Part shown: positions 45,365-47,304 of the stretch, piece by piece | How positions within the stretch are numbered: position 1 is the first letter of the stretch | How the letters are laid out: each line of letters opens with the position of its first letter | From: Peribacillus asahii | GTDB taxonomy: Bacteria; Bacillota; Bacilli; Bacillales; DSM-1321 | NCBI RefSeq assembly: GCF_004006295.1 | Contig: NZ_CP026095.1 | Location: 92,501-152,500 of the forward strand | DNA length: 60,000 nt | Direction: 5' to 3' | Program-made: the position numbers and the translations under genes | Notes under the pieces: model-generated | What the model was told of the DNA's origin: nothing | The model's database searches: none | The model's input: the letters and a program-made list of their open reading frames with translations, nothing else

Positions 45365-46030
<666 letters not shown>

Positions 46031-46062
46031 TTCTACAAATCTTGTGGAATTTGCGAAAAAGT

Positions 46063-46091
46063 ATGCAATTTTTTTCGATAAAAGGTATAAT
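46063..46091 (+). promoter_or_regulatory. Possible promoter before the infA segment
   Basis: TATAAT at 46086-46091 with ATGCAA at 46063-46068 (17-bp spacer), the same element as before rpoB. A weak 8-bp hairpin (TTCTACAA/TTGTGGAA, 46031-46049) directly after adk precedes it. A promoter here would drive infA-rpmJ-rpsM-rpsK across the map remnant. Confidence 0.45.
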
Positions 46092-46157
46092 GAATTTCGC
46101 GGGCGTCAACGCAGTACTTCAAAATATCTAGCTTTTGATTTTTTCAAAATCTACAAA

Positions 46158-46530
46158 ATTACTGAAGAAACTAGAGCGACTCTAAAGGGTTTAAAGAGTC
46201 ATTATATAGAGGGTTGAAAGAAGCTTGCCAGGCGTGCGTCTTTCAAATATCTCCCATGCTATTCAAACCTATGTCGTGGTTCACTATTTCTCTTGAGTTT
46301 AGAGAGTATGGCTTCCACGGAATCGGTCAAGACTTACATGAGGACCCATAGTTAAGTTCCTCATTTCGGTCCACCTGATAAAGGTCCTCAGTTAAAGCCT
46401 GGTTTGGTAAACGCTGTTGTAATAAGTGAATACTATATGCAGATATGCACTGACTTTAGAGGATGATTGGACTGTAGTAACGGTTGACGGAAAGATGTGT
46501 ACTCTTTTAGAGTTCACCCATAGAGAAGGG
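46158..46530 (+). pseudogene. map: Degraded methionine aminopeptidase gene (map)
   Basis: Fragments of MetAP-I appear in the right order but in different frames: ITEE (46158) and YRGLKEA (46205-46225); NISHAIQTYV (46246-46275); EFREYGFHGIGQDLHEDP then a stop TAG (46295-46351); HFGPPDKGPQLKPGLV (46362-46409); [20 protein letters not shown] (about 46441-46500). At least four frame changes and a nonsense codon separate them. The N-terminal half with two metal-binding Asp residues is missing and the AIEP glutamate region is deleted. It sits exactly where map stands between adk and infA. It cannot give an active enzyme. Confidence 0.93.
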
Positions 46531-46542
46531 AGAATCACTTTA

Positions 46543-46761
46543 ATGGCGAAAGACGATGTAATTGAAGTAGAAGGCACAGTACAAGAGACTTTGCCAAATG
46601 CAATGTTTAAGGTAGAATTAGAAAATGGTCATACTGTTTTAGCTCATGTATCCGGTAAAATTCGTATGCACTTTATTCGTATTTTGCCTGGAGATAAAGT
46701 TACGGTTGAGCTTTCCCCGTATGATCTAACTCGCGGCAGAATCACATACCGATTTAAATAA
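46543..46761 (+). CDS. infA: Translation initiation factor IF-1
   Basis: A 72-residue OB-fold factor binding the ribosomal A site. It reads [29 protein letters not shown] and ends with [18 protein letters not shown] 46543 follows AGAAGGGAGA. The frame is also open upstream through the map remnant, so a fused reading frame exists, but a proper ribosome binding site and the full family length fix this start. The KOW gene (ybzG/rplGA) often found between map and infA is absent. Confidence 0.97.
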
Positions 46762-46796: not shown

Positions 46797-46916
<120 letters not shown>

Positions 46917-46938
46917 TTAGAAGGAGGTGCACTCAAGC

Positions 46939-47304
46939 ATGGCACGTATTGCTGGAGTAGATATTCCCCGTGACAAACGTATTGTTATCTCATTAACATA
47001 TATTTATGGTATTGGTAAACAAACTGCGATCAAAGTTCTTGCAGAAGCAGGTGTTTCTGAAGATACTCGCGTTCGTGACTTAACAGAAGACGAATTAAAC
47101 AAAATTCGTGACATCATTGACAAGTTAAAAGTAGAAGGCGACCTTCGTCGTGAAATCTCTCTTAACATCAAGCGTCTAATGGAAATCGGCGCGTACCGTG
47201 GTCTTCGCCACCGTCGTGGTCTTCCTGTTCGTGGACAAAACACTAAAAATAATGCTCGTACGCGTAAAGGACCTCGTCGTACAGTAGCTAACAAGAAAAA
47301 ATAA
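46939..47304 (+). CDS. rpsM: Ribosomal protein S13
   Basis: A 121-residue protein of the 30S head that bridges to L5 and contacts P-site tRNA with its tail. [25 protein letters not shown] opens it; the basic tail ends [18 protein letters not shown]. The ATG 46939 follows AAGGAGGTGC. Next gene rpsK is 22 bp away. Confidence 0.98.

Follow-up and report, generated by a model that had tools for sequence, protein, structure and literature searches.

Between adk (45377–46030, plus strand) and infA (46543–46761, plus strand; 72 amino acids, ATG start), two intact open reading frames of the window, i.e. the whole 60,000-nucleotide stretch of DNA analysed here, lies a spacer of 512 bp (46031–46542, plus strand) that contains the remains of map, the gene encoding a type I methionine aminopeptidase (MetAP). 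The genome carrying the window comprises 4.89 Mb in two contigs. Among the named relatives listed, Peribacillus asahii is nearest with 99% at Adk, although the list may omit records of this genome or of very close ones. In seven genomes of the genus with an intact map the same spacer measures 805–1070 bp. The main relic covers former codons ~112–231 (46156–46512, plus strand) in several frames; it was detected at the DNA level with a profile of 49 intact maps (codons 112–231; nhmmer E 1e-64) and in pieces by tblastn. Within it, the REYVGHGIGQDLHEDP region (former codons ~162–178; 46303–46350, plus strand) is well conserved among 24 Peribacillus relics. The Shine-Dalgarno (SD) region of infA (GAAGGGAGA) is located at 46525–46533 on the plus strand.

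An intact Peribacillus map used as tblastn query against the spacer retrieved residues 134–234 in frame 3 (E 4e-17) and residues 127–178 in frame 1 (E 4e-10). An earlier note on this DNA had counted at least three frames; two are significant as protein, whereas the third (frame 2, residues 47–65) reaches only E 0.15 and is below significance. The frame 3 piece contains internal stops. No frame of the length of TIGR00500 (~247 codons) exists in 46031–46542, where the longest plus-strand stop-to-stop frame has 61 codons. Nor are the five metal ligands of this family all present. Codons ~66–112, to which we assign the first two ligands, are unrecognizable by both DNA profile and tblastn, but HGIGQDLHEDP, which includes the histidine ligand, can still be read, and the supposed loss of the metal ligands thus holds for only some of them. 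Over 321 bases the relic is 81% identical to an intact adk-locus map of the genus, and DNA comparison with the two intact MetAP paralogues of the same genome (see below) yielded only short chance-level matches. The relic is thus the decayed resident gene, and derivation from a paralogue can be ruled out. Taken together, map has decayed in situ between adk and infA, as originally proposed, and the single locus of the window represents ordinary pseudogenization. That the frameshifts are sequencing or assembly errors in a map that is really intact is virtually inconceivable, because the relic recurs at 98% identity in a sister genome (G002; probably P. asahii, given a spacer of identical length and profile match), 29 of 36 genomes of the genus have a decayed map at this position, a clade of 24 genomes that includes the present one lacks the gene, and codons ~66–112 are unrecognizable.

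Two intact type I MetAPs are encoded elsewhere in the genome, at C1:2358621 and C1:608411. Both match the family profile over its full length and above the curated cut-off (317 and 314 bits; cut-off 171), in agreement with the prediction that another MetAP must exist; two further, weaker matches below the cut-off reside in longer frames. The two intact proteins share 74% identity with each other and 49–51% with Map, and in the alignment both have D, D, H, E and E at the positions that we take to be the metal ligands. A MetAP match above the cut-off is present in all 36 genomes of the genus, and wherever map persists next to infA (seven genomes), two or more additional full-length MetAPs are encoded. 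Redundancy therefore very likely preceded the loss of map, and one of the paralogues presumably supplies the housekeeping activity. In one genus genome of 87% completeness (G007), two partial MetAP matches lie far apart on one contig (G007:C1:3553609–3554112, plus strand, residues 79–246; G007:C1:53097–53522, minus strand, residues 3–144) and may represent a broken or misassembled copy.

Comparison with other genomes was based on two sets of loci. The first comprised 115 adk–infA loci, 36 from the genus and 79 from named relatives (80 were considered, of which one has no infA); an intact map is present in 49 and a degenerate one in 66. Some species are represented repeatedly in this set (L041/L014, L042/L013 and L061/L009 look like the same genomes), and 45 intact maps remained after collapsing. 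The second, held-out set was drawn from the family and the order (127 loci), and a filter divided it into 109 intact and 18 'degenerate' loci. After six rows with more than 97% identity to members of the first set had been removed and near-copies merged, 97 intact maps remained; three of the 18 'degenerate' loci (L153, L154, L183) are misfiled, nearly complete maps and enter neither count. Collapsing identical spacers left 77 distinct degenerate ones.

A phylogeny of 64 loci, inferred from partial adk, infA and the sequence behind it, requires at least nine changes in the state of map, six of which are imposed by well-supported branches. One supported clade, made up of 24 Peribacillus loci including the window, shows lost states only; L009, placed amid intact relatives, has probably lost map separately. 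Only 7 of the 36 genus genomes retain an intact map beside infA. The neighbouring KOW gene, noted earlier as missing too, is indeed absent from the window, as it is from 34 of the 36 genus genomes (found in 2). Five of the seven genomes that keep map also lack it, so in this genus it had mostly disappeared before map; a common loss of both genes in one event can be ruled out. At the start of adk, 22 of 24 loci inspected (L013, L016, L018, L020–L022, L024–L026, L028–L040) have a codon for leucine, presumably TTG used as start, in place of the ATG found in the window and L014.

The relic also contains a promoter-like sequence, here termed E1 (TGCAAT-N16-TATAAT; 46064–46091, plus strand; TATAAT at 46086–46091), at former map codons ~51–60. 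In its general pattern, TGCA-N18-TATAAT, the TGCA core precedes a perfect −10 hexamer by 17 nt, as counted from NTGCAW; in intact maps the respective codons spell GCA...TTTAAAGGNTATAAT. Synonymous conservation in the 45 intact maps peaks at codons 48–57 (observed/expected 1.65; median 1.13), and the same codons form the peak in the 97 held-out maps (1.40; median 1.09, sd 0.08), followed by codons 60–69 (1.29), 238–247 (1.24) and 142–151 (1.22). In 20 within-gene codon shuffles the maximum never exceeded 1.17; because such shuffles also break relatedness, the median is the fairer yardstick. Codon 52 is GCA in 70 of the 97 held-out maps, as compared with 29% GCA among the other alanine codons (109 genes). 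The exact pattern occurs in 34 of 45 first-set and 50 of 97 held-out intact maps, being missing in 47 of the latter.

E1 is conserved in relics as well as in intact genes. TGCA-N18-TATAAT was found in 42 of the 77 distinct degenerate spacers (missing in 35), with 0.04 expected from dinucleotide shuffles, and none of these spacers contained the pattern at any other spacing from 12 to 25. Outside the genus, 17 of 48 degenerate spacers carry it, namely L044, L068, ten Lysinibacillus-group loci, L105, L119 (Virgibacillus), L234, L144 and L120 (Listeria). No map relic was detected in L105, L119 and L234 by profile search, though by eye the wider surroundings of E1 (GATGCATTTCTATCTG...TATAAT) still resemble map codons; for L120 and L144 homology of the pattern to E1 is uncertain. 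The 42 loci are related to each other, and from the 64-locus tree, which does not include L120, we estimate that they represent between six and eight lineages independent of each other. E1 has a weak −35 and was not picked up by a plain scan for the sigma-70 consensus.

Some degenerate loci without E1 have other promoter-like sequences near infA, recognized by eye: TTGACA-N17-TATTGT in L019, L023 and L027, and TGATATAAT in L053 and L055. Promoter-like sequences between map and infA were also counted in loci with an intact map, leaving out those with a tail of more than 200 bp. In the first set they occurred in 3 of 6 loci lacking E1 and in 1 of 23 carrying it, but in the second set in 0 of 5 and 1 of 16, respectively. 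That promoters in this interval compensate for a missing E1 could not be established. In the Lysinibacillus group (L087–L103 without L088), a second promoter-like stretch, TTGCAA-N17-TATA, is present at about base 75–105 of the spacer (map codons ~24–35), with a −35 half that varies less than E1; at base 81 of the L048 spacer, inside an intact map, there is a similar string.

One may ask whether the spacer is anything more than unselected junk in the process of being lost, with the similarity between species reflecting recent divergence only. Compatible with such a plain pseudogene are the 12 of 66 degenerate spacers without any profile match to map and the spacers of only 226–227 bp in Gottfriedia and relatives. 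Sequence divergence argues otherwise. In 21 Peribacillus genomes with spacers of 561–567 bp, mean pairwise divergence amounts to 7.7% upstream of E1 (58 columns) and to 1.6% between E1 and infA (507 columns), as compared with 11.8% at 76 4-fold sites of adk. The ratio of leader to adk 4-fold divergence is 0.135 (bootstrap 95% interval 0.08–0.22), part of which could be a regional effect because 4-fold divergence is also low in infA (0.3%, i.e. nearly free of synonymous change beside adk at 12.5%), rpmJ (1.5%), rpsM (3.5%) and rpsK (4.2%) of these genomes. This caveat is weaker for the 16 species of the Lysinibacillus group, where 4-fold divergence is 30% in adk and 12.5% in infA. In their spacers, 20-column windows at 1–5% divergence interleave with windows at 30–54%, the conserved blocks being the upstream TTGCAA stretch (codons ~24–35), a block derived from codons 61–82, and the element E2 described below. 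The TATA-like end of the TTGCAA stretch falls in a more variable window, and the E1 region is likewise more variable than the conserved blocks. Given this alternation, the Peribacillus ratio and the exact E1 spacing retained in several lineages, we regard a wholly unselected relic as improbable.

The second conserved non-coding block, E2, derives from former codons ~130–154 (46205–46277, plus strand) and has the core CTTTCAAATATCTCCCATGC at 46240–46259. Conceivably, E2, along with the codon 61–82 block of the Lysinibacillus group, gives the relic a role beyond that of a promoter, acting within the infA leader as an RNA regulator or as a site bound by protein, for instance by pairing with the infA SD or as a boxA-like site. 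In the first set, E2 coincides with the second peak of synonymous conservation (codons 134–143, 1.55; raised region ~134–147). Of the 54 degenerate spacers with a recognizable relic, 53 include codons 143–150, a count to be read with the reservation that the 12 spacers without profile match cannot show E2 and that profile detection favours conserved parts. The core is nearly invariant in the 16 Lysinibacillus-group species, and CTT-TCN at codons 142–143 goes with E1 among first-set maps (32 of 38 versus 0 of 11). This coupling, strong among the first 49 intact maps, was not significant in the held-out genes (27 of 59 versus 16 of 50, p 0.17; with near-copies collapsed, 24 of 50 versus 14 of 47, p 0.10), and the held-out E2 peak is weak (1.22), lying below that of the unrelated codons 238–247.

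Structure predictions for E2 were equally mixed. The predicted probability of pairing between E2 and the infA SD was 0.33–0.60 in five Peribacillus leaders but 0.0 in the sole scorable one of three Lysinibacillus-group leaders tried; such pairing is at most a possibility. Local folds of E2 had z-scores of −2.0 to +0.7 relative to mononucleotide shuffles (10 of 11 segments; one was not located), RNAalifold returned no favourable covariation term for the 16 Lysinibacillus-group leaders, and the 5' arm (codon 133) is unconstrained (synonymous 0.20 versus 0.21 expected). The z-scores and the unconstrained arm argue against a conserved hairpin. Among Rfam cis-regulatory leaders, none matched a spacer above the gathering score (window and six other loci). 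Further downstream, at or near the rpmJ–rpsM junction, sub-threshold matches to Alpha_RBS (RF00140) were obtained in four of seven sources (18.6–28.3 bits; gathering score 38), at 46870–46971 of the window, 5417–5505 of L101, 5396–5501 of L103 and 1817–1923 of L013; they may mark a site through which the alpha operon of these bacteria is subject to S4-type control. Finally, GTCTTTCAAAC within E2 may resemble boxA, the NusB–S10 site, but the boxA reading was set aside. The boxA consensus GYTCTTTAANA given in PMC5725501 is gamma-proteobacterial. On balance, a leader function of E2 seems rather doubtful to us. The same tentativeness applies to the broader idea, drawn from sequence comparison, that map of Bacillales-type bacteria might hide a complete control module for infA and the alpha operon, consisting of promoter E1 and mRNA leader element E2 (plus the codon 61–82 block in the Lysinibacillus group), of which repeated map loss would leave a non-coding regulatory fossil. 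If true, E2 would be an undescribed leader regulator of IF1 and of the genes for S13, S11, alpha and L17.

We consider it probable that the promoter of infA and the alpha operon is located inside map and often outlives it, E1 and DNA downstream of it having stayed under selection after loss of the gene in place. According to this model, map was lost in the ancestor of the 24 sampled Peribacillus genomes, which very likely already possessed two further type I MetAPs, so that the essential activity would have been covered. The gene body would then have been free to decay, while map codons 51–60 would harbour a promoter driving infA and the alpha-operon genes behind it, composed of the TGCA −35 core, a 17-nt spacer and TATAAT. 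Transcription, we infer, starts from E1, and E1 together with at least parts of the downstream DNA would remain selected as promoter and untranslated leader of infA. The suggestion of the earlier note that a promoter-like element may be the reason for retention of the remnant thus gains support from comparative evidence.

While pseudogenization at one locus is ordinary, what is of interest is that the same promoter-like element within map has repeatedly outlasted the gene, in several separate losses. A literature search, in which subscription literature was sparsely covered, returned no report of map relics or of an infA promoter inside map, and the accessible parts of PMC8046335 and PMC3871023 contain nothing on either. 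Persistence of dead-gene scraps in a tight ribosomal cluster might be explained if they hold a promoter-like signal serving the genes that follow. By discarding map again and again, nature would in effect have carried out a deletion analysis that reveals control sequences concealed within a gene. For infA and the operon of the RNA polymerase alpha subunit, E1 predicts a transcription start that can be tested. Likewise, the MetAP gene of the ribosomal cluster, essential in B. subtilis, appears to be dispensable when paralogues are present.

Intragenic promoters that serve downstream operon genes are a known kind of element, and E1 resembles them in its placement inside an upstream gene. Unlike them, it outlives its host gene, and does so in several lineages. 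With map of the spc-alpha cluster the relic shares its place between adk and infA, but there map is a coding gene, whereas in the window it is non-coding, fragmented into several frames and partly gone. As in the window genome, more than one type I MetAP is encoded by B. subtilis. According to You et al. 2005 (PMC1266368), both the map and the yflG protein of B. subtilis are functional, yflG is dispensable due to its weak expression, and yflG on a multi-copy plasmid can replace the essential map; in the window genome, by contrast, it is the adk-locus copy that was lost. In B. subtilis, the transcript that covers infA to rplQ is reported to begin upstream of infA (Boylan et al. 1989, cited in PMC4495994), which would be compatible with a promoter at E1.
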